64,000 nt of DNA from an uncultured Chitinophaga sp. (lineage in GTDB: Bacteria > Bacteroidota > Bacteroidia > Chitinophagales > Chitinophagaceae): positions 248,001 to 312,000 of the forward strand of contig NZ_CAMLHC010000005.1 of assembly GCF_946479755.1 (NCBI RefSeq). The letters run 5' to 3'. The notes under the pieces were generated by a model, which did no database searches, was not told where the DNA came from, and was given only the letters and a program-made list of their open reading frames with translations. A program made the translations under genes and the position numbers. Below, piece by piece: positions 33,271-43,281 of the stretch (position 1 is the stretch's first letter; each line of letters opens with the position of its first letter).

Positions 33271-36200
33271 ATGAAACAAACTTCTCTGATTATGGGATTT
33301 AAAAAATTACTCTTTACCTTATCCTTATTACTCACAACGATCTTTACCTATGCACAGGTTACGACCTCAGGTATGAACGGTAAGGTAACCGGTACAGACA
33401 ATGTTGGTTTACCCGGTGCAACAGTAGTGGCTGTACACCTTCCCTCCGGTACCCGTTACGGTACTACGACCGATGCCGAAGGCTTTTACCGTTTGCCAAA
33501 CATGAACGTAGGTGGTCCCTACAAAGTGACCGTTTCCTACATTGGCTTTAACGAATTTTCCCAGGACAACATCTCGCTTGCACTGGGCCAGACATTTAAA
33601 CTGAACGCAAAACTGGCTGACAAAAGCCGGGAAATCAAACAAGTAGAAGTGGTTGCACAGCGTAACAACGCTTTTGATCCGAACCGTAAAGGTGCTCAGA
33701 CCGTGATCAGCCGCTCTCAGATTGAGGCCCTGCCTACCGTTGGCCGTAACTATACAGACTTTGCCCGTTTAACACCTCAGGCAAGACTGACAAAAGACGG
33801 TAATGGTAACAACGGTATCTCTATTGCCGGTACCAACAGCCGTTACAACGCCATCTTTGTGGACGGCGCCGTACAAAACGACGTATTTGGCCTCTCCGAC
33901 AACGGTGCTAACGGTGGTCAGATTGGTATTTCACCTTTCAGTGTGGACATCATCGATCAGATCAACATCAACGTTTCTCCGTTCGACGTAAAACAAGGCG
34001 GTTTCGCCGGTGGTTCCATCAACGCCGTAACCCGCAGCGGTACCAATAACATTGAAGGTTCTGCTTACTATTTCTTCCGCAACCAGGACCTGGCTGGTAA
34101 AAGACCTACCGATATCAAAGGTTCAGACCGTCCTAAACTGCCGGATTTCGCCTCCCAGACTTATGGTCTGCGTGTTGGCGGTCCGATCATCAAAAATAAA
34201 CTGTTCTACTTCGTAAACGCCGAATTCCAGAAAGACGAAACACCTCAAAACTTCGGTTACGATACCTATGCAGCCAGCCTGAAGGCCAACGCTGCTACCC
34301 GTGATCAGCTGGATGCCGTAAGCGGTAAACTGATGAAAATGGGTTATGATCCCGGTGGATATGAAAGCAACATCCGCAAACTGGACGGTACCAAACTGTT
34401 CGTTCGCCTGGACTGGAACATCAACAGCGTTCACAAATTCACGATCCGTCATCAGTACACCAGAGGTGTAAGTACCAGCCCTGCTGTATCTAACCAGCGT
34501 AATATCTTTTATGCTAACAGAGGCGTTTACTTCCCTTCTACCACCAATGCTACTACCGCCGAGCTGAAAAGCATGTTCGGTAACAAAGCGTCCAACTCAT
34601 TGCTGATCGGTGTAAACCGTGTGCGTGACGACCGTGGTGTGATGGGCAACCCTTTCCCTAACGTTTTCATCACCAAAGAATCTATCGGTTTCGGTTCTGA
34701 AGCATTCTCCGCAGCTAACCTGCTGCAACAGGATGTGATCACCCTGACAGACAACTTTGAGCTGTACAAAGGAAAACACACCATCACCATCGGTACCAGC
34801 AATGAATACTACAATCTGAACAACGTATTCATCAGAAATAACTTCGGCGCCTATACTTACGCCAACGTAAACGATTTTCTGAACGATAAATCACCTATCC
34901 GTTTCCAGCGTACTTTCTCTGCTGTTGACAACGGCATTGGCGACGACACCAAAGCTGCCGCTAAATTAAAAGCCATGCAGCTCGGCTTATATGTTCAGGA
35001 CGATTACCAGATCAGCGATAACTTCAAACTGTCATATGGTCTGCGTGCCGACCTGCCTATCTTCCTCGATAAACCGCGTGAAAATGCCGGTTTCAACGAA
35101 AACGTACTGCCTAAACTGGAAGCTGCCGGTTGGGACCTGAACGGTGCCAGAACCGGTGTGAAACCTGATAGCAAAATCCTCCTCTCTCCCCGTATCGCCT
35201 TTAACTGGGACGTTACCGGTGACCAGAGAACCCAGATCCGCGGTGGCGCCGGTATCTTTACCAGCCGCATTCCGTTTGTATGGGTTGGTGGCATCTACAA
35301 CAACAATGGTGTGACCCTCGGTGAAATGGACGTTAAATACGATCCTACCAAACCAACCGCTCCGGGTAACCAGCCGATTGTGTTCAACCCGGCTTATGAC
35401 AAACAGCCTTCTATCACTGCCGTACCTTCCGGCCAGATCGACCTGTTTGCCAAAAACTTCAAATTCCCGCAGGTATTCAGAACCAGCCTCGCTGTTGACA
35501 GAAAACTGCCTTGGGGCATGGTTGGTACCCTCGAAGGTATCTTCACCAAAACCCTCAATAACGTTAACTACTACAACCTGGCCTACGTAAAGAACGGTAG
35601 CCAGACCGTTACCGGCAATGGTGGCGACAACCGTCCTATCTACAGAAAGATCGGTACAGACACCCTCGGTGCTTATCCTAACATCTACTACGCTGAAAAT
35701 ACCAGCAAAGGTTACACTTATAGCTTCACCGCCCAGTTGCAGAAAGCTTTCCGCAATGGTCTGAGCGCCAATGTTGCCTATACTTTCAGCCGTGCAAAAG
35801 GCCTGAACGACGGTCAGTCCTCCCAGAACTCTTCCCAGTGGCGTATGCCTAACGTAAGAGGTAAAAATGACCTCGATATGGCTTATTCTATCTATGATGG
35901 CGGTTCCCGTATCGTAGCTTCCGTATCCTATAAAAAAGAATACGCTGGCTTCATGGCTACTACTGTCAGCCTGTTCTATACCGGCCAGAATGGCGACCGC
36001 TTCTCTTATGGCTACAGAGACAACGCCGGCAACCTGAACATCAACAAAGACCTGCCTGGCTCCGGCGACGCTGGTCTGAGCATTATGTATGTTCCCAGAG
36101 ATGCAAGCGAAATCCACCTCGTAGACTATAAAGACGCTGGTGGTAACACCGTATCCGCTGCGGACCAGTGGAACAGACTGAACAGCTTTATCGAAAACGA

Positions 36201-36591
36201 TAAATACCTGGCTTCCCGCAGAGGTCAATACGTTGAAAGAAACGGCGTGAGAGCTCCGTTCTCCAACATCTTCGACCTTCACCTGGCACAGGATTTCTAC
36301 ATCAAACAGAAAAATGGTGTAAGACATACCCTGCAACTGACCTTCGACATCTTCAACCTCGGTAACCTGATCAACAAAGATTGGGGCAGACTTTACACTG
36401 CACGTACCGGCATGAGCTACAACAACTATGGTCTGATCGACTTCGTTGGATTTGAAGCGGATGGTACTACACCGAAATTCAACTACACCGGTCCGGCTGC
36501 GAAAAACAAAACCGTTGCCCAGATCGATGACATCGGATTACAAACTGCCCGCTGGCAGAGCCAAGTGGGTGTAAGATATACTTTCAAATAA
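33271..36591 (+). CDS. Oar-like TonB-dependent receptor
   Basis: The 1106-residue outer-membrane protein has a signal peptide (FKKLLFTLSLLLTTIFTYAQ), a carboxypeptidase-regulatory-like domain (about 35-115; GTTTDAEGFYRLPNMNVGG), a plug (about 130-260; GVSIAGTNSRYN-like, then FVDGAVQNDVFGLSD, FAGGSINAVTRSGTN) and a large barrel ending in QVGVRYTFK with a terminal aromatic strand. The plug wording and the size are typical of Oar-type receptors. The ligand is unknown. Codons here are less G+C-rich and more uniform than in neighbours, which fits a highly expressed gene. The ATG at 33271 and the one at 33292 are both possible; the first has a promoter-like box four bases upstream. Confidence 0.92.
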   Translation: MKQTSLIMGFKKLLFTLSLLLTTIFTYAQVTTSGMNGKVTGTDNVGLPGATVVAVHLPSGTRYGTTTDAEGFYRLPNMNVGGPYKVTVSYIGFNEFSQDNISLALGQTFKLNAKLADKSREIKQVEVVAQRNNAFDPNRKGAQTVISRSQIEALPTVGRNYTDFARLTPQARLTKDGNGNNGISIAGTNSRYNAIFVDGAVQNDVFGLSDNGANGGQIGISPFSVDIIDQININVSPFDVKQGGFAGGSINAVTRSGTNNIEGSAYYFFRNQDLAGKRPTDIKGSDRPKLPDFASQTYGLRVGGPIIKNKLFYFVNAEFQKDETPQNFGYDTYAASLKANAATRDQLDAVSGKLMKMGYDPGGYESNIRKLDGTKLFVRLDWNINSVHKFTIRHQYTRGVSTSPAVSNQRNIFYANRGVYFPSTTNATTAELKSMFGNKASNSLLIGVNRVRDDRGVMGNPFPNVFITKESIGFGSEAFSAANLLQQDVITLTDNFELYKGKHTITIGTSNEYYNLNNVFIRNNFGAYTYANVNDFLNDKSPIRFQRTFSAVDNGIGDDTKAAAKLKAMQLGLYVQDDYQISDNFKLSYGLRADLPIFLDKPRENAGFNENVLPKLEAAGWDLNGARTGVKPDSKILLSPRIAFNWDVTGDQRTQIRGGAGIFTSRIPFVWVGGIYNNNGVTLGEMDVKYDPTKPTAPGNQPIVFNPAYDKQPSITAVPSGQIDLFAKNFKFPQVFRTSLAVDRKLPWGMVGTLEGIFTKTLNNVNYYNLAYVKNGSQTVTGNGGDNRPIYRKIGTDTLGAYPNIYYAENTSKGYTYSFTAQLQKAFRNGLSANVAYTFSRAKGLNDGQSSQNSSQWRMPNVRGKNDLDMAYSIYDGGSRIVASVSYKKEYAGFMATTVSLFYTGQNGDRFSYGYRDNAGNLNINKDLPGSGDAGLSIMYVPRDASEIHLVDYKDAGGNTVSAADQWNRLNSFIENDKYLASRRGQYVERNGVRAPFSNIFDLHLAQDFYIKQKNGVRHTLQLTFDIFNLGNLINKDWGRLYTARTGMSYNNYGLIDFVGFEADGTTPKFNYTGPAAKNKTVAQIDDIGLQTARWQSQVGVRYTFK

Positions 36592-36607: not shown

Positions 36608-36642
36608 AAAAAAAAGCTGACCAGTGATGGTCAGCTTTTTTT
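36608..36642. terminator. Bidirectional terminator
   Basis: A 9-bp G+C-containing stem (AGCTGACCA with TGGTCAGCT, loop GTGA) is flanked by A7 on the left and T7 on the right, so it works for both the receptor and the convergent esterase gene, whose stop region it overlaps. Confidence 0.9.
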
Positions 36643-37377
36643 ATGGATCCATCCCAAAAACACTTCCATCGCCCGCTCCCACGTCTCCTTATCATGCCGC
36701 CCCCCGGGTACCTCGAAGTAAGTAATATCCTCCGGCTCCCGATACCCTTTTGTCACTAACTCCGCTATCAGATCCCGCGTATCATCGATACTGTCAATAA
36801 TACCGTTGCCGTTACGGTCTGCCGTTTCATCTGCGGTACCGCATTCAAAAAAGAACTGAAGCCCCGGCCGGTAGTCACTTTCACGGATACGGCGATGCAT
36901 AATACGATCGCGTTCATCACGGTAAGCCGCATCCAGCGGGCGGCTCCGCCACCAGAGTGCTCCGGAGAACACACCTGCCATACTGAAATACTGCGGATGC
37001 TGCCACACGATGTCCAGCGCCGACAGCCCTCCCAGCGAAAATCCGGCGAACGCCCGTTTTACACCGGCCAACGAAGGATACTGCTGTTCCAGAAAAGGTA
37101 GTAATTCTTTTATCAAAAACTGGCTGTATACCGCTGCCAGCGCGCCATCTCCCTTATAATCGGCGATGCCGGCCACGCCATACTCCTGGCGGCGCCGCGG
37201 CCCGGCATGAACGGCTGCCACCCATACCCCCGGCGGTATCGCCGCAGGCAGCACCGGCAGGTCCTGCCCGTCATTCACCAGCAATAAAATATGCGGAAGC
37301 CCTTCAGGTTGATATACGTCCAGCGTGACTTCCCGCTGCAATCCCCTTGCAGGGACCATCCGTCGATCTATTTGCAT
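36631..37377 (-). CDS. Esterase-like alpha/beta hydrolase with EF-hand-like loop
   Basis: The 248-residue protein belongs to the putative-esterase (Fes/EstD-like) group. The nucleophile is Ser114 in AGFSLGGLSALD, and the C-terminal histidine is in PGGRHDKETW. An insertion reads D187-R-N-G-N-G-I-I-D-S-I-D198, a perfect 12-residue EF-hand calcium-loop pattern. There is no signal peptide, so it is predicted cytoplasmic. It is divergent from the amide-ligase operon, with 57 bases between start codons, and next to that operon's own hydrolase; shared regulation is plausible but not shown. Confidence 0.85.
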   Translation of the reverse strand: MQIDRRMVPARGLQREVTLDVYQPEGLPHILLLVNDGQDLPVLPAAIPPGVWVAAVHAGPRRRQEYGVAGIADYKGDGALAAVYSQFLIKELLPFLEQQYPSLAGVKRAFAGFSLGGLSALDIVWQHPQYFSMAGVFSGALWWRSRPLDAAYRDERDRIMHRRIRESDYRPGLQFFFECGTADETADRNGNGIIDSIDDTRDLIAELVTKGYREPEDITYFEVPGGRHDKETWERAMEVFLGWIHKKS

Positions 37378-37434: not shown

Positions 37435-38142
37435 ATGACTGAAAACTACTATAAATGGCATTCACCCAACCTGGGAAAGGAATTTGAGATGCTGGTATTC
37501 GGTGACAGCGGATACCCGCTGCTACTCTTTCCCACCTCCATGGGCCGCTACTATGAAAGCAAAGACCGCGGCCTCATTGACGCTATCCGGTGGTTTATCG
37601 ACGAAGGACGCGTGAAAGTGTATTGTCCCGACAGCATCGACGCCGCCAGCTGGTACAACAGGAGCATTACCCCTCAGTACCGGGCGTATAATCATACCTG
37701 TTATGATAAAATGCTGATAGAGGAAGTGATGCCCCGCATAGAAGCGGAAACAGGCCGGCAGCGCATTGTAGCCGCCGGATGCAGCTTCGGCGGATATCAT
37801 GCCGCTAATTTCGCTTTCCGTTATCCCGGCAAGGTGTCTTATCTCTTCAGCCTCAGCGGTATCTTCGATATCAAGGCCCGGGTGGACGACTACTACGACG
37901 ATCACGTGTATTTCAACAACCCGGCCGACTTTATGCCGGGCAACGACGACCCGGACCTGTGGCGCATGGGTATTGTGCTCGGCGCCGCCGAAACAGACGT
38001 TACCCGCCCGCAGAACGAACAGTTTTCGCAACTGCTGGCGGCCAAAAATATCACCCACTGGCTGGACATCAGGCCGCACGCCCACCATGACTGGCCAGTA
38101 TGGCGCGAAATGCTGCCACACTATCTGTCACTCATCAAGTAA
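37435..38142 (+). CDS. Esterase-family alpha/beta hydrolase, first gene of the amide-ligase operon
   Basis: The 235-residue soluble protein has the nucleophile Ser117 in AAGCSFGGYHAANFAFRYP and a C-terminal HAHHDWPVWREM that carries the catalytic histidine. It matches the esterase D/antigen-85-like group that hydrolyses small esters or thioesters. It has no signal peptide. It starts a run of five same-strand genes, and the ATP-grasp gene begins four bases after its stop. In this context it might deacylate or cyclise a ligase product, or proofread it. That is inference; the fold call is firm. Confidence 0.88.
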   Translation: MTENYYKWHSPNLGKEFEMLVFGDSGYPLLLFPTSMGRYYESKDRGLIDAIRWFIDEGRVKVYCPDSIDAASWYNRSITPQYRAYNHTCYDKMLIEEVMPRIEAETGRQRIVAAGCSFGGYHAANFAFRYPGKVSYLFSLSGIFDIKARVDDYYDDHVYFNNPADFMPGNDDPDLWRMGIVLGAAETDVTRPQNEQFSQLLAAKNITHWLDIRPHAHHDWPVWREMLPHYLSLIK

Positions 38143-38146
38143 GCGT

Positions 38147-39232
38147 ATGAAAAAAATCGGCATTCTATTCGGACAGGAGAACTCTTTCCCACAGGCATTT
38201 GTAGACCGCGTTAACCGCATCAATCCCCCCGGCATCTTCGCAGAGCTTGTCACCATCGACAAAGTGCTGCAGGGCGCCGACAGCGGCTATGCCGTTATCA
38301 TAGACCGGATCTCGCAGGACGTGCCTTTTTACCGCGCCTTCCTGAAAAATGCCGCCATCGCCGGCTGTGCGGTCATCAACAACCCGTTCTGGTGGAGCGC
38401 CGACGATAAGTTCTTTAACAACGCACTGGCGCAAAAGATAGGCGTAAACGTGCCCCGCACCGTACTGCTGCCTTCTTATGCCCTGCCGGACAATACCACC
38501 GACAAATCGTTCCGTAACCTCGTGTACCCGTTTGACTGGAACACCATCTTCGACTACATCGGGTTTCCCGCCTATATGAAACCCTTTGCCGGCGGCGGCT
38601 GGAAGCATGTCTACCACGTGGAAGACAAGGATGATTTTTTCCGTCAGCATGCAGAAACCGGTCAACTGGTGATGATGTTGCAGGAAGAAATAGACTTCAC
38701 ACAATATTACCGCTGCTTCTGCATCGGCGGCAACCAGGTGCGGATCATGGCCTACAATCCTAAAAATGCACCTCATCAGCGCTACCAGTCCGACTTTAAA
38801 GGCAGCGACGCGCTGATGCAGCAGATCACCGAACAGGTAATAGCACTCAATCAATACCTCGGCTACGACTTTAATACCGTGGAAATAGCCGTCAGAGGAG
38901 AGGTGCCTTATGCGATCGACTTCTGCAATCCCGCACCGGATGCGGACATCAACGCCATCGGAGAAGAACATTTTGAATGGGTGGTGGAAACCAGCGCCCG
39001 CTATGCCATAGAGCGGGCCGTTGCGCAAAAACCGGGAAAAGACAACCTTACCTGGGGCCGTTTTGTGAGGCAACATACCAATAAAAAAGCAACAGTGACT
39101 AAAACGGTCAAAACCGCGAAAGCTGCCAAAACGGCCAAAGCCACGCCGGCGAAAGAGAAAGCCGCTCCCGCTAAAAAAACGGGCAAAACATCCGCCTCTC
39201 CCAAAAAAGCCAAACCGAAAGAAAAACAATAA
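38147..39232 (+). CDS. ATP-grasp ligase with Lys/Ala-rich C-terminal tail
   Basis: The product is 361 residues from the ATG at 38147, which follows the esterase stop by four bases; longer upstream readings overlap the esterase in another frame and are not real. Residues 1-310 are an ATP-grasp enzyme, which joins a carboxylate to an amine via an acyl phosphate. The ATP-binding strand is PAYMKPFAGGGWKHVYHVED (about 143), followed by MMLQEEIDF. The magnesium-binding end is NTVEIAVRGEVPYAIDFCNP. From about residue 311 to the end is a tail made almost only of K, A, T, S and P (KTVKTAKAAKTAKATPAKEK), like a histone-H1-type or nucleic-acid-binding extension. The substrate is unknown. Confidence 0.87.
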   Translation: MKKIGILFGQENSFPQAFVDRVNRINPPGIFAELVTIDKVLQGADSGYAVIIDRISQDVPFYRAFLKNAAIAGCAVINNPFWWSADDKFFNNALAQKIGVNVPRTVLLPSYALPDNTTDKSFRNLVYPFDWNTIFDYIGFPAYMKPFAGGGWKHVYHVEDKDDFFRQHAETGQLVMMLQEEIDFTQYYRCFCIGGNQVRIMAYNPKNAPHQRYQSDFKGSDALMQQITEQVIALNQYLGYDFNTVEIAVRGEVPYAIDFCNPAPDADINAIGEEHFEWVVETSARYAIERAVAQKPGKDNLTWGRFVRQHTNKKATVTKTVKTAKAAKTAKATPAKEKAAPAKKTGKTSASPKKAKPKEKQ

Positions 39233-39314
39233 ACAAACAGTGATCATCTCCCGATAAATGACCGGAAGACATTTTCATAATGTCTAATTCGTAATTTCGG
39301 AAAAAATTTTAATC

Positions 39315-40415
39315 ATGTTCAGAGCGTTTACGCTGGGTATAGAAGAAGAATACATGGTCATGGACCCCACCACCAGGGAGCTCCGGTCCCATGAGCAAAA
39401 GATAGTGGAACAGGCCCATAAAGTGATCCGCGACCAGGTAAAGGCTGAATTTCATCAGGCAGTGGTGGAAGTGGGCACACAGATATGTGCCAACATACAG
39501 GAAGCACGCGAAGATGTGGCGCTGCTACGCCGCACCATCACCCAGATAGCCGGCGACCTCGGTTTCAGCATCGGCGCCTCCGGCACCCACCCTTTCAGTA
39601 AGTGGGAAAAACAAATGATCACCGACCATCCCCGCTATTTTGAGATCGTCAACGAAATGCAGGACGCCGCCAGGTCCAACCTGATCTTTGGCCTGCATGT
39701 GCACGTAGGCATGGAAAACAGGGAAATGGCCCTGCATATCGCGAACTCCGTCCGCTATTTCCTGCCGCATATTTTTGCCCTCAGTACCAACTCCCCTTTC
39801 TGGGAAGGCCGTAATACCGGCTTCAAATCCTTCCGCACCAAGGTTTTTGATAAATTTCCCCGTACCGGCATCCCCGATTATTTTGCCAGCATCGAAGAAT
39901 ATGACAACTATATCAAACTGCTGGTCAAAACCAATTGTATCGACAACGCCAAAAAGGTATGGTGGGACCTGCGGGTACACCCGTTCTTCAACACGGTGGA
40001 ATTCCGCATCTGTGACGTACCCCTGACGATAGACGACACCATCACGCTGGCAGCGCTCTTCCAGGCCGTATGCGCCAAAATATACAAGCTGCGCATGCAG
40101 AACCTGAACTTCATCATCTACAACCGTGCCCTCGTCAACGAAAACAAATGGCGCGCCTCCCGCTATGGTATCGATGGTAACCTCATCGACTTCGGAAAAG
40201 AGATGGAAGTCAACACACGGTCACTCATATACGAACTGCTCGATTTTATCGACGACGTAGTGGACGATCTGGGCAGCCGCGATGTGATCAAAGCCACCAC
40301 AGACATCCTGGCCAACGGTACCGGGGCGGACAGACAGCTGAAAGTATTTGAAGAAACCCAGGACCTCGTCGCCGTAACCGACTTCATTCACGATCAGTTT
40401 CTGAAGAACTGCTGA
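39315..40415 (+). CDS. Carboxylate-amine ligase of the glutamate-cysteine ligase 2 family (YbdK-like)
   Basis: The 366-residue protein starts FRAFTLGIEEEYMVMDPTTR, the typical N-terminus of the GCS2/YbdK family with the metal-binding glutamates (GIEEE). Further family motifs are SIGASGTHPFSKWEKQ, FGLHVHVGMENREMA, STNSPFWEGRNTGFKSFR and WWDLRVHPFFNTVEFRICD. Family members make gamma-glutamyl or related amide bonds using ATP. It is preceded by 82 bases with the repeated TAATTCGTAATTT motif. Given its neighbours it is probably a second ligase of a peptide- or amide-forming pathway, not a glutathione synthesis enzyme, although that cannot be excluded. Confidence 0.92.
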   Translation: MFRAFTLGIEEEYMVMDPTTRELRSHEQKIVEQAHKVIRDQVKAEFHQAVVEVGTQICANIQEAREDVALLRRTITQIAGDLGFSIGASGTHPFSKWEKQMITDHPRYFEIVNEMQDAARSNLIFGLHVHVGMENREMALHIANSVRYFLPHIFALSTNSPFWEGRNTGFKSFRTKVFDKFPRTGIPDYFASIEEYDNYIKLLVKTNCIDNAKKVWWDLRVHPFFNTVEFRICDVPLTIDDTITLAALFQAVCAKIYKLRMQNLNFIIYNRALVNENKWRASRYGIDGNLIDFGKEMEVNTRSLIYELLDFIDDVVDDLGSRDVIKATTDILANGTGADRQLKVFEETQDLVAVTDFIHDQFLKNC

Positions 40416-40447
40416 GCCGGAATGACGGATTACCCGGCCGTAATTCG

Positions 40448-40455
40448 TAATTTTG
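40448..40455 (+). promoter_or_regulatory. -7 promoter element inside the amide-ligase operon
   Basis: TAATTTTG matches TAnnTTTG exactly, four bases (CAGT) before the ATG of the amidotransferase gene, and overlaps the TAATTCG iteron. It may be an internal promoter giving a leaderless transcript. Confidence 0.45.
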
Positions 40456-40459
40456 CAGT

Positions 40460-41356
40460 ATGCATCCAATCAAAAACAACTGGAAAGTAGCAGTGCTGGA
40501 TATGTATGAGGGCGTGGCCAATGAAGGTATGCGCTGCATCCGGGAAATACTGGTGCAATATGCAGCGATGCACGCACTGGACCTGCAATTCGATGAGTTT
40601 GAAGTCAGACTGCAACAACAGGTGCCCGACACCTCCTATGACATTTATATCTCTACCGGCGGCCCCGGCAGCCCGGTAGACAGCGAAGGCAGCATGTGGG
40701 AACAGAAATATTTCTCGCTGATAGAAGACCTCCTCGTCTGGAACCGTACACAGGAACACAAAAAACCCGCTTTTTTTATCTGTCACTCCTACCAGATCAT
40801 GTGCCGCTACTATGGTATCGGCAACGTCTGTAAACGCAGGTCGCCCGCCTTCGGGGTTTTTCCGGTGCATAAAACCGCCGCCGGCCTCTCCGAAAAAGTA
40901 TTTACCGCCCTGCCCGATCCGTTTTATATCGTAGACAGCCGCAACTGGCAGGTAATAGAACTGAACCACGAACGCCTCTATGCCATGGGCGGCCAGGTGC
41001 TGGCACTGGAAAAAGAACGGCCGCACGTACCGCTGGAACGCGCTACCATGGCCATCCGCTTCAACGATCACTTTATCGGTACCCAGTTCCACCCGGAAGC
41101 AGATGCCGATGGCATGCACATGTACCTGCGCCAGGAAGAAAAGAAAAAACAGGTGGTCGACCATCACGGCATCGAAAAATACAACAGCATGCTGGAACAA
41201 CTCACCGATCCGGATAAAATCATGTTGACACACGACCGGCTGATCACCGCCTTCCTCGACTATGCCGTTTACGGTCAACTGAGCGACCGGCTGGCTGCCA
41301 TCGAGCACCTGGAAGGCGTTCCCTCCCACAACGACGATGAAAACACCTTTTTCTAA
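40460..41356 (+). CDS. Class I glutamine amidotransferase
   Basis: The 298-residue protein has the catalytic triad of the class I (GMP synthase-like) glutaminase domain: Cys108 in FFICHSYQIMC, and His211 and Glu213 in IGTQFHPEADADG. The N-terminal ISTGGPGSPVDSEG is the usual oxyanion-side strand. It could supply ammonia from glutamine to one of the neighbouring ligases or, like PuuD-type enzymes, hydrolyse a gamma-glutamyl bond. The C-terminal 80 residues, beyond the glutaminase domain, are helical. The next gene starts 18 bases after its stop. Confidence 0.9.
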   Translation: MHPIKNNWKVAVLDMYEGVANEGMRCIREILVQYAAMHALDLQFDEFEVRLQQQVPDTSYDIYISTGGPGSPVDSEGSMWEQKYFSLIEDLLVWNRTQEHKKPAFFICHSYQIMCRYYGIGNVCKRRSPAFGVFPVHKTAAGLSEKVFTALPDPFYIVDSRNWQVIELNHERLYAMGGQVLALEKERPHVPLERATMAIRFNDHFIGTQFHPEADADGMHMYLRQEEKKKQVVDHHGIEKYNSMLEQLTDPDKIMLTHDRLITAFLDYAVYGQLSDRLAAIEHLEGVPSHNDDENTFF

Positions 41357-41374
41357 TCCGTTTATTCCAATATT

Positions 41375-42571
41375 ATGATACCCAACGTCAGACAGGCATA
41401 TAATCAACAGTTCACCGACGACCGCTATCAGGCCTTCCTGGAAGGCATTGCACAGGATGCCGGCATAGCGCCCGATTTCCGGGTGGCCGAAACACCGGTG
41501 TTTGTACCCGCCGATCTGACCAGCAAACTTATACAGGCCTGCGAAGAAATTGTGAATGTGATCCTGCGGCCAGACTTTAAGTCAATCACCCAGGACGCCA
41601 TTCCCGCCGATCTGAAAGTGCCGCATGAAAATGAACATCCGCACTTTATCGTGATCGATTTTGCCGTATGCCAGGACGAAGCCGGCGCCTACTCCCCCCG
41701 GCTCATCGAGTTACAGGGCTTCCCTACCATGTACGCCTTCCAGGACGTGATGGCACGGCAATTCAAAAACCACTTCGCTATTCCGGAACAACTGAGCAAT
41801 TTTTTCAACGGCATCGATGAAAAAACCTATTATCAACTACTTCGGGAAATGATCGTAGGCCACCTCCCCACGGAGGAAGTCGTGTTACTGGAAATAAAAC
41901 CGGAAGAACAGAAAACACGCATCGACTTTGCCAGCACAGAAAAGTATATCGGCATCCGCACGGTATGCCTCACCCAACTGATACAGGAAGGGAAAAAACT
42001 GTTTTATATGCGCGATGGCATTAAAACGCCCATCCAACGCATCTTTAACCGCATCATCTTCGATGATCTCCGGAAACAGTCCGGTCACCTGGAGCCGCAT
42101 GTGAACCTGTTCCAGGACCTCGATGTAGAATGGATCACGCACCCCAACTGGTTTTACCGGATCAGCAAATACACCATGCCTTTTATTCACAGTGAATTTG
42201 TGCCTAAAAGCTGGTTCCTGCATGAACTACCGGTAGTACCCGCCGACCTGGAGAACTATGTACTGAAACCCCTGTTTTCCTTTGCCGGACAGGGCGTGGT
42301 GATAGACCTCACACAACAGGACATTGATAATATTAAAGATCCTGAAAACTGGATTTTACAACACAAAGTGAAATACGCCCCTGCTATACAAACACCCACC
42401 GGGCCGGCTATCTGCGAAATCCGGATGATGTACATCTGGCCGGACAGCTCTCCACGGCCCATCCTGGTACACAACCTGTCCAGGATCAGTAAGGGAAAAA
42501 TGATTGGTGTAGGCTTCAACAGCACCGACACATGGGTGGGCGGCAGCTGCTGTTTCTTCGAATTTGCTTAG
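41375..42571 (+). CDS. Divergent ATP-grasp-like protein, last gene of the amide-ligase operon
   Basis: The 398-residue soluble protein does not belong to a family I can name. The C-terminal third looks like an ATP-grasp core: ENYVLKPLFSFAGQGVVI (about 292) resembles the ATP-binding lysine strand and glycine loop, ENWILQHKV the second strand, and ICEIRMMYIW the metal-binding strand. An N-terminal part has HFIVIDFAVCQDEAG and RLIELQGFPTMYAFQ. If active it would be the third ligase of the operon. If the motifs have decayed it may only bind substrate. It is convergent with the A+T-rich block that begins nine bases downstream. Confidence 0.72.
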   Translation: MIPNVRQAYNQQFTDDRYQAFLEGIAQDAGIAPDFRVAETPVFVPADLTSKLIQACEEIVNVILRPDFKSITQDAIPADLKVPHENEHPHFIVIDFAVCQDEAGAYSPRLIELQGFPTMYAFQDVMARQFKNHFAIPEQLSNFFNGIDEKTYYQLLREMIVGHLPTEEVVLLEIKPEEQKTRIDFASTEKYIGIRTVCLTQLIQEGKKLFYMRDGIKTPIQRIFNRIIFDDLRKQSGHLEPHVNLFQDLDVEWITHPNWFYRISKYTMPFIHSEFVPKSWFLHELPVVPADLENYVLKPLFSFAGQGVVIDLTQQDIDNIKDPENWILQHKVKYAPAIQTPTGPAICEIRMMYIWPDSSPRPILVHNLSRISKGKMIGVGFNSTDTWVGGSCCFFEFA

Positions 42572-42579
42572 GCAGCGGA

Positions 42580-43281
42580 TTATAAACGCAGCAGGTCTTC
42601 TTTGGAGAATTTTTCCTGGTTGATACTCAGCTCAATGGTATCCAGCTGTTTGAGCTCCGGAAGAACTTTAAGAAGGGCTGCTTTTTTATCGTTTTTGATC
42701 TTCTTGTTGATATAAAAATCCCGGATGTAGATTTTCGCCGGAGGATTGACTGTCACCAGTGCTGACAGGTCTTTCAAATGGAACATATTGGTCAGCCTCA
42801 ATTCTTTTAATTGTTTCAATGTCGAAAAATCCAATAACTGCCGGGCATTCAGCTCAAATAAAAAAAGTTTTTCAATCGCTGAAAAATCTTCTAAAAAAGC
42901 CAGGTCATTGATCTTTGCGACACCCGAAATCTCTATATGTCTTAATGACGGTAAAACAGGAAAGGCCAGATGATCGATTTTTGAGGTAAAACTCTCCAGC
43001 TTCAATGTTTCCAGCGAAAGCTCCTGTAAAAAATCCAGTGTGTTAACAGCCCCTTTATTACTGATCATCAGCGCTGTCAACGATTTACACTGGGATACCG
43101 GAGAGAGGTCTTTAACACTGCCCGCAATGAGCAGACTTTTCAGATTTGTAAGTTTGGAGATGAATTTTAAAGAAATACTGGTATAGATATAGAGGTTTAA
43201 TGTGTCGATTTCATCTGTGTTATACGTCTTCAGCACATCTATATCTTTTGCGCTGTTTATTTCAATATCTACGGTCATCAT
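42580..43281 (-). CDS. Leucine-rich-repeat-like protein
   Basis: The 233-residue protein has no signal peptide. At least five repeats of roughly 20-25 residues have the LxxLxxL spacing of LRRs (LTNLKSLLIAGS; CKSLTALMIS; LSLETLKLES; LPSLRHIEISG; LKQLKELRLTN). The fold would be a curved solenoid used for protein contact. Codon and base composition are clearly more A+T-rich than in flanking genes. It is the last gene of a four-gene minus-strand block (45492 to 42580). The binding partner is unknown. Confidence 0.75.
   Translation of the reverse strand: MMTVDIEINSAKDIDVLKTYNTDEIDTLNLYIYTSISLKFISKLTNLKSLLIAGSVKDLSPVSQCKSLTALMISNKGAVNTLDFLQELSLETLKLESFTSKIDHLAFPVLPSLRHIEISGVAKINDLAFLEDFSAIEKLFLFELNARQLLDFSTLKQLKELRLTNMFHLKDLSALVTVNPPAKIYIRDFYINKKIKNDKKAALLKVLPELKQLDTIELSINQEKFSKEDLLRL

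Follow-up and report, generated by a model that had tools for sequence, protein, structure and literature searches.

A conserved six-gene cluster with three candidate amide-bond ligases in Chitinophaga and other Bacteroidota

The locus and its genes

A stretch of 64,000 nucleotides from an uncultured Chitinophaga sp. (NCBI RefSeq assembly GCF_946479755.1, contig NZ_CAMLHC010000005.1, positions 248,001 to 312,000 of the forward strand; hereafter the window, with its first letter as position 1) carries six linked genes that encode two esterase-type hydrolases, a glutaminase-like protein and three ligases of different families. These genes constitute a real, conserved and apparently uncharacterised three-ligase pathway, which is a new combination of known kinds of enzyme. 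Their positions and the names used here are as follows.

E0, 36631..37377, minus strand: PF00756 (enterochelin-esterase-like) hydrolase, divergent from the operon
E1, 37435..38142, plus strand: PF00756 esterase-type hydrolase
AG1, 38147..39232, plus strand: ATP-grasp ligase of the RimK/LysX fold; its C-terminal tail is rich in lysine and alanine and of low confidence
GCS, 39315..40415, plus strand: YbdK-type GCS2 carboxylate-amine ligase
GAT, 40460..41356, plus strand: class I glutamine amidotransferase (GATase)-like protein
AG2, 41375..42571, plus strand: ATP-grasp ligase predicted to have the eukaryotic glutathione synthetase/GspS/YgiC-YjfC fold; no Pfam or NCBIfam match

The five genes from E1 to AG2 share the plus strand and are separated by 4, 82, 44 and 18 bases, and E0 starts 57 bases from E1 in the opposite direction. 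An earlier, sequence-only reading had described the five-gene operon, and its coordinates, strand and gaps proved exact on rechecking, but it had missed E0 as the sixth member. Profile scores also agree with the families it had proposed (esterase, ATP-grasp, GCS2 and class I GATase), AG1 being sub-threshold for RimK.

Folds and active sites of the encoded proteins

Both esterases exceed the PF00756 cut-off of 22 bits (E0 with 71 bits, E1 with 38.7 bits) and keep a serine and a histidine without exception: Ser114 in GFSLGG and His228 in 15 of 15 aligned homologues of E0, and Ser117 in GCSFGG and His218 in 16 of 16 aligned homologues of E1. For these two proteins, as for GAT, GCS and AG1 below, the catalytic roles of the invariant residues were assigned from family knowledge. 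E0 additionally contains a strongly conserved D-R-N-x-N-G-I-I-D-S-I-D-D stretch, the glycine of which is found in 12 of the 15 aligned sequences and which we take to resemble an EF-hand-type calcium loop inside the esterase.

AG1 matches the RimK/LysX ATP-grasp fold over most of its catalytic part, although its score of 33.3 bits with TIGR00768 stays below the cut-off for RimK alpha-L-glutamate ligases (143.4 bits). K145, E180, E181, D258 and N261 are invariant in all 22 aligned homologues. Its lysine/alanine-rich tail (39077-39229), which is reminiscent of histone H1, varies in length among relatives and is nearly absent in four loci (L011, L040, L049 and L052). Membership of AG1 in the R2K clade was considered and rejected: the Pfam matches are weak, both lying below cut-off, and the accessible part of the relevant paper describes no such neighbourhood (PMC4431377).

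GCS is a clear member of the YbdK-type GCS2 ligases, exceeding the curated cut-offs of NF010039 (534.8 vs 371 bits), TIGR02050 (295.2 vs 176.4 bits) and PF04107 (200.5 vs 21 bits) while remaining below those of all glutamate--cysteine ligase models listed. Over 347 aligned positions it shares 29% identity with E. coli YbdK, and it matches the structures PDB 1r8g/1tt4. Its GIEEE at residues 8-12, in which G8, E10, E11 and E12 are invariant (21 of 21 aligned sequences), fits GhExE, the Mg/ATP motif of GCS2 according to the accessible text of Iyer et al. (2008, PMC2588565).

GAT scores 37 bits with PF00117 (cut-off 22.8), and its triad Cys108/His211/Glu213, which the earlier reading had described as intact, is invariant together with Gln112 in 24 of 24 aligned homologues.

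The fifth protein of the operon, AG2, matches no Pfam or NCBIfam family up to an E-value of 0.1. It had been proposed to be a divergent ATP-grasp-like protein that could be checked by structure prediction, and this check has borne the proposal out: a confident predicted model gives the 398-residue protein the glutathione synthetase/GspS ATP-grasp fold over its whole length. VIA-align ranks YgiC and YjfC at the top, and Foldseek finds structures of eukaryotic glutathione synthetase and of Cp1B (E 2.8e-14 for 1m0w and 3.4e-11 for 9cjn). AG2 is 96% identical to its counterpart in C. eiseniae DSM 22224. Residues of R-x-D and E-x-N motifs are invariant in YgiC, YjfC and Gss; AG2 keeps the glutamate of E-x-N as E112 and has glutamine (Gln114) in place of the asparagine, both being invariant in 32 of 32 aligned homologues, while the arginine of R-x-D could not be placed securely in the alignment. 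On its predicted model, AG2 is a GspS/glutathione-synthetase-fold ATP-grasp ligase.

Conservation of the cluster

The loci compared are the 80 best among 232 confirmed AG2 homologues in one genome collection, and some of them are cut by contig ends. The order of the window, with E0 divergent and followed by E1, AG1, GCS, GAT and AG2, recurs in loci of Chitinophaga, Pedobacter, Mucilaginibacter and Dyadobacter, and other loci are split into an AG1-GCS and a GAT-AG2 module. When open reading frames (ORFs) of at least 90 residues were clustered, the six commonest families were those of the cluster, i.e. AG2 (78 loci), GAT (70), GCS (60), AG1 (58), E1 (40) and E0 (39), the last of these lying on the strand opposite AG2 in every E0 match mapped. 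The same six lead among the 45 loci L036-L080, only one of which is from Chitinophaga (L037): AG2 was found in 45, GAT in 43, GCS in 30, AG1 in 27, E1 in 19 and E0 in 24, and the next family in 15. The association of the six genes is more than chance.

Around these loci, no family of non-ribosomal peptide synthetases or small peptides recurs widely beside the set in the clustering of longer and shorter ORFs, in which ten of the lineage-limited neighbour families were identified. The ten include a chitin-synthase-like glycosyltransferase, a Crp-type regulator, YceI, pirin, PorV, a porin and, in Chitinophaga, a D-Ala-D-Ala ligase. The widest family among 1172 ORFs of 25-89 residues occurs in 17 loci, all within L036-L080; an example is a Cys-rich, membrane-like ORF of 52 residues downstream of AG2 (L062:9815-9970), which may be unrelated. 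In 31 of the 80 loci, 30 of them in L001-L035, AG2 is followed a few kb downstream by a gene of the D-Ala-D-Ala ligase family (e.g. L001:14797-15783), and in Chitinophaga varians a secreted-looking ORF of 600 residues splits the operon between AG1 and GCS (L005:3988-5790).

Co-occurrence was assessed in a single fixed sample of 296 genomes from Bacteroidota, with E-value limits of 1e-3 for AG2, 1e-10 for GCS and for BshC of the bacillithiol pathway, 1e-20 for AG1, 1e-30 for GAT and 1e-25 for E1; neighbours had to share contig and strand unless stated otherwise. AG2 is present in 92 genomes, GCS in 103, AG1 in 108 and GAT in 70. The ligases overlap closely, AG2 sharing 87 genomes with GCS and 89 with AG1, and 84 of the 92 AG2 genomes hold all three ligases, 50 of them together with GAT. 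In 30 genomes, AG1, GCS, GAT and AG2 fall within 6 kb on one strand. Among neighbours less than 3 kb apart, AG1 precedes GCS in 56 of 56 cases and GAT precedes AG2 in 40 of 40, with 38 of the latter pairs within 300 bases. The earlier reading had named rare proximity of the homologues as a refuting condition, and this check did not refute it.

GAT has no match in 37 AG2 genomes. AG1 and GCS are both retained in 34 of these, yet any two ligases lie within 10 kb of each other, strand ignored, in only 11 of the 37, from which it follows that the three ligases travel together even when unlinked. Such joint inheritance argues for one pathway. Other combinations occur as well: AG1 is present without AG2 in 19 genomes (15 with GAT, four without), and GCS without AG2 in 16, seven of which have AG1 and GAT and nine none of the other three. 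In these nine, GCS is matched less strongly (E 5.8e-105 to 1.1e-79) than by the best match in any AG2 genome (1.6e-124 or better).

E1 was found in 125 of the 296 genomes. Of its 143 places, the 57 that seemed to be near AG1 were entered into the pairing, and E1 lies upstream of AG1 in 51 of 51 same-strand pairs less than 2 kb apart (45 within 300 bases), a lower bound that represents at least 51 genomes.

Spread of the cluster on plasmids was considered and rejected. At the E-value limits used, 72,556 plasmid records contain no match to AG2 or to AG1 (queried with its tail left out). Relatives of GCS2 occur in 57 of these records; of three inspected, two are annotated and stand in unrelated contexts, and the third is unannotated.

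A second operon type

Fifteen genomes have AG1 and GAT without AG2. In 14 of them, the two genes are 1.4-1.65 kb apart on the same strand, and in the remaining one separate contigs carry them. Eight of the 15 were fetched (L117-L124). In five (L117, L118, L120, L122 and L123), the gap cleanly holds a single protein of 451-483 residues, here called X, followed directly by GAT; an E0-like esterase comes next in four of these five, and E1 precedes AG1 in three. X is also visible in L121 and L124, where ORF picking lost AG1 and GAT, respectively, while the set of L119 could not be resolved. All four X proteins scanned match both circularly permuted ATP-grasp families PF14403 and PF04174, and two exceed the PF14403 cut-off; a profile built from six X proteins finds 3n6x (E 1.9e-8). 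X, another circularly permuted ATP-grasp protein, and AG2 thus look like alternative ligases of one superfamily that serve AG1 and GAT. When sequence profiles were compared, AG2 showed weak local matches only to YgiC/YjfC/Gss and to X, as did X to YgiC/YjfC/Gss; the assignment of AG2 rests on structure. A further ATP-grasp protein (PF13535), possibly another ligase, is encoded after the alternative operon at L117:9136-10311.

A circularly permuted ATP-grasp peptide-tagging system reportedly described by Iyer et al. in 2009 has a linked NTN-hydrolase peptidase and a gene for an alpha-helical domain. An NTN-hydrolase-type peptidase is absent among the ten identified lineage-limited neighbours of our 80 loci (others were not identified), and the six families alone recur widely.

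What the pathway may make

Enzymes of the GCS2, RimK and GspS/glutathione synthetase types form acyl phosphates, which are then passed on to amines. From what the analysis shows, namely which genes are present, their predicted folds, the conservation of catalytic residues and the joint inheritance of the three ligases, we propose, with moderate confidence, that the six genes form a cytosolic non-ribosomal pathway that would build stepwise, and turn over, a small gamma-glutamyl peptide or amide. GCS would join the gamma-carboxylate of glutamate to an amine or amino acid, and AG1, encoded just before it, would add a further unit via an acyl phosphate. AG2 would then activate the C-terminal carboxylate and cap it with an amine or ammonia. 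GAT would be the partner of AG2, a Cys-dependent amidase or glutaminase whose role, though not its fold, would be like that of the amidase half of Gss in E. coli. Finally, E0 and E1 may hydrolyse esters or thioesters of the product or of its conjugates.

The earlier reading is supported in part. That three amide-bond ligases form one conserved pathway draws good support from fold, conserved active sites and co-occurrence. The set has six genes rather than the five described, it splits into a RimK-like plus GCS2 module and a glutaminase plus GspS-like module, and GAT is unmatched in part of the AG2 genomes. The last point makes GAT dispensable to the core of the pathway.

Several observations weigh against the proposal of a gamma-glutamyl pathway or against its details. 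GAT has no match in 37 of the 92 AG2 genomes and is on the strand opposite AG2 in L036, L039 and L047. GCS is missing from five AG2 genomes and AG1 from three, and of the 15 AG2-less genomes that have AG1 and GAT, seven have GCS and eight show no GCS match. The Fisher P-values for AG2-GCS (2e-51) and AG2-AG1 (3e-52) treat genomes as independent and ignore shared ancestry. The likeness of AG2 to YgiC in sequence is marginal (hmmsearch E 0.23; hhalign probability 21.8), and its E-x-Q in place of the E-x-N of YgiC, YjfC and Gss means that donor and acceptor may differ. E. coli YbdK itself, to whose type GCS clearly belongs by score, is not near such ligases, and neither are the GCS2 genes on one Paracoccus and one Spirosoma plasmid, which stand in unrelated contexts.

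The likeliest rival to the proposal concerns the role of GAT. The position of GAT next to AG2 or X hints at transfer of ammonia to a partner synthetase, and GAT and AG2 might form a true amidotransferase in which ammonia from glutamine amidates a carboxylate, as GatD does for MurT, the product being a carboxamide rather than a polyamine conjugate. A glutaminase gene beside the gene of a synthetase subunit is a usual layout, and the invariance of Gln112 along with the catalytic triad, the placement of GAT before AG2 in all same-strand neighbour pairs under 3 kb and its position directly after X in the second operon are all as this explanation would have it. The partner of GatD is a Mur ligase; here it would be a GspS-fold ATP-grasp protein that often occurs with GAT absent, and the nearest folds to AG2 are named for the use of amines or amino acids, not ammonia. 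MurT-GatD does provide a precedent for a class I GATase-type gene beside that of an ATP-dependent ligase (PMC5871853, accessible part). As the sequence fits either function, GAT may supply ammonia or may cleave a gamma-glutamyl or capped product, and we regard the amidotransferase as somewhat unlikely.

RimK modifies ribosomal protein S6, and LysX/ArgX modify LysW, which raises the question of whether the ligases of the cluster act on a protein rather than make a free metabolite. This is improbable: AG1 scores far below the RimK cut-off, the activities by which the fold neighbours of AG2 and GCS are named involve small molecules or peptides, and no carrier or target protein recurs widely nearby, though a target need not be linked. 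A ribosomal peptide pathway of the graspetide kind, with AG1 as macrocyclase, is most improbable. Foldseek does rank the graspetide ligase MdnC first for AG1 and also lists PsnB, but VIA-align places RimK/LysX above both, the 4-82 base spacers could hardly accommodate a precursor gene and no family of short ORFs (25-89 residues) extends beyond 17 of the 80 loci.

Quite improbable, too, is a glutathione-like low-molecular-weight thiol, for which GCS and AG1 would act as gshA and gshB and the esterases would resemble S-formyl-glutathione hydrolase. BshC was found in 291 of the 296 genomes (285 above cut-off), including 90 of the 92 with AG2, and since it is nearly universal, the role of the thiol is already filled and a glutathione substitute becomes unlikely. 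As the title of one study has it, derivatives of bacillithiol may be the most widespread thiols in bacteria (PMC6282198). The glutathione synthetase ATP-grasp family PF02955 is absent from the two Chitinophaga genomes tested, while the Dyadobacter and Pedobacter genomes tested have matches elsewhere. PF02955 is not specific, being matched also in 9 of 14 controls, B. subtilis among them.

A bolder version of the gamma-glutamyl pathway, which we consider unlikely but worth stating, is that it is an undescribed pathway which re-invents the logic of glutathionylspermidine: GCS2 and the RimK-like ligase would build a gamma-glutamyl peptide, the GspS-fold enzyme would add a polyamine or similar amine as a cap and a Cys enzyme of class I GATase fold, not related to the Gss amidase, would reverse the capping, with the second operon type using a different, circularly permuted ATP-grasp enzyme for the same purpose, all of it widespread in Bacteroidota that bear bacillithiol genes. 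sym-Homospermidine was considered as the amine of the cap and dropped; a literature search gave nothing useful on it.

Relation to known systems

YgiC and YjfC, whose folds VIA-align ranks nearest to AG2, are named peptide-spermidine ligases in RefSeq and, in the accessible text of one study, peptidylpolyamine synthetases (PMC12568646). AG2 is 10-14% identical to them and to Gss and differs in its E-x-Q. In Gss, the glutathionylspermidine synthetase/amidase of E. coli, the amidase is fused to the synthetase, whereas in this cluster the Cys hydrolase is a separate class I GATase of another fold; and unlike Gss and YgiC/YjfC, AG2 has GCS2 and RimK-like ligases linked to it. The fold is also shared with eukaryotic glutathione synthetase and fungal Cp1B (E-64 pathway), although AG2 is shorter (398 residues vs 481 in 1m0w_A, 459 in 8fbz_A and 486 in 9cjn) and 11-13% identical. 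Enzymes of this fold are able to couple a carboxylate that is not an amino acid to amino acids (PMC12568646, accessible part).

For a ligase family of glutamine-synthetase fold with neighbouring GATase-like thiol peptidases, synthesis of glutathione or related peptides has been predicted (Iyer et al. 2008, PMC2588565). As here, a GCS2-sized ligase stands beside a GATase-like thiol hydrolase in these systems, but the ligase is from a different family, found with the thiol peptidase in proteobacteria, and the term ATP-grasp has no occurrence in the accessible text of that paper. Because peptide synthesis was predicted there for similar neighbourhoods, the general idea of such clusters is already in print. 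No paper naming the six-gene set or its product was found among the open-access papers searched, and the earlier statement that this gene order has no characterised product stands uncontradicted within that scope. A broad survey of amidoligases from 2009, reportedly by the same group as the 2008 study, lies outside it and may list the set.

Neighbouring genes

A TonB-dependent, carboxypeptidase-regulatory-like outer-membrane receptor (33271-36591) adjoins the cluster in the window, and in several Chitinophaga (L018, L028 and L030) a copy of this receptor that is 66-69% identical stands immediately upstream of E1 and shares its strand. Downstream, a leucine-rich-repeat gene (42580-43281) is convergent with AG2; matched in just three of the 80 loci (L001, L002 and L021), it is not part of the conserved set. 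The window contains no RNA element at Rfam gathering scores and no tRNA, and the six proteins have no PADLOC match to a defence system up to an E-value of 0.01.

Significance

With AG2 in about three of every ten Bacteroidota genomes sampled, the product of the pathway would be a widespread metabolite, one that we found named nowhere. The finding gives context both to an unannotated family of glutathione-synthetase fold and to proteins annotated as 'carboxylate-amine ligases'.

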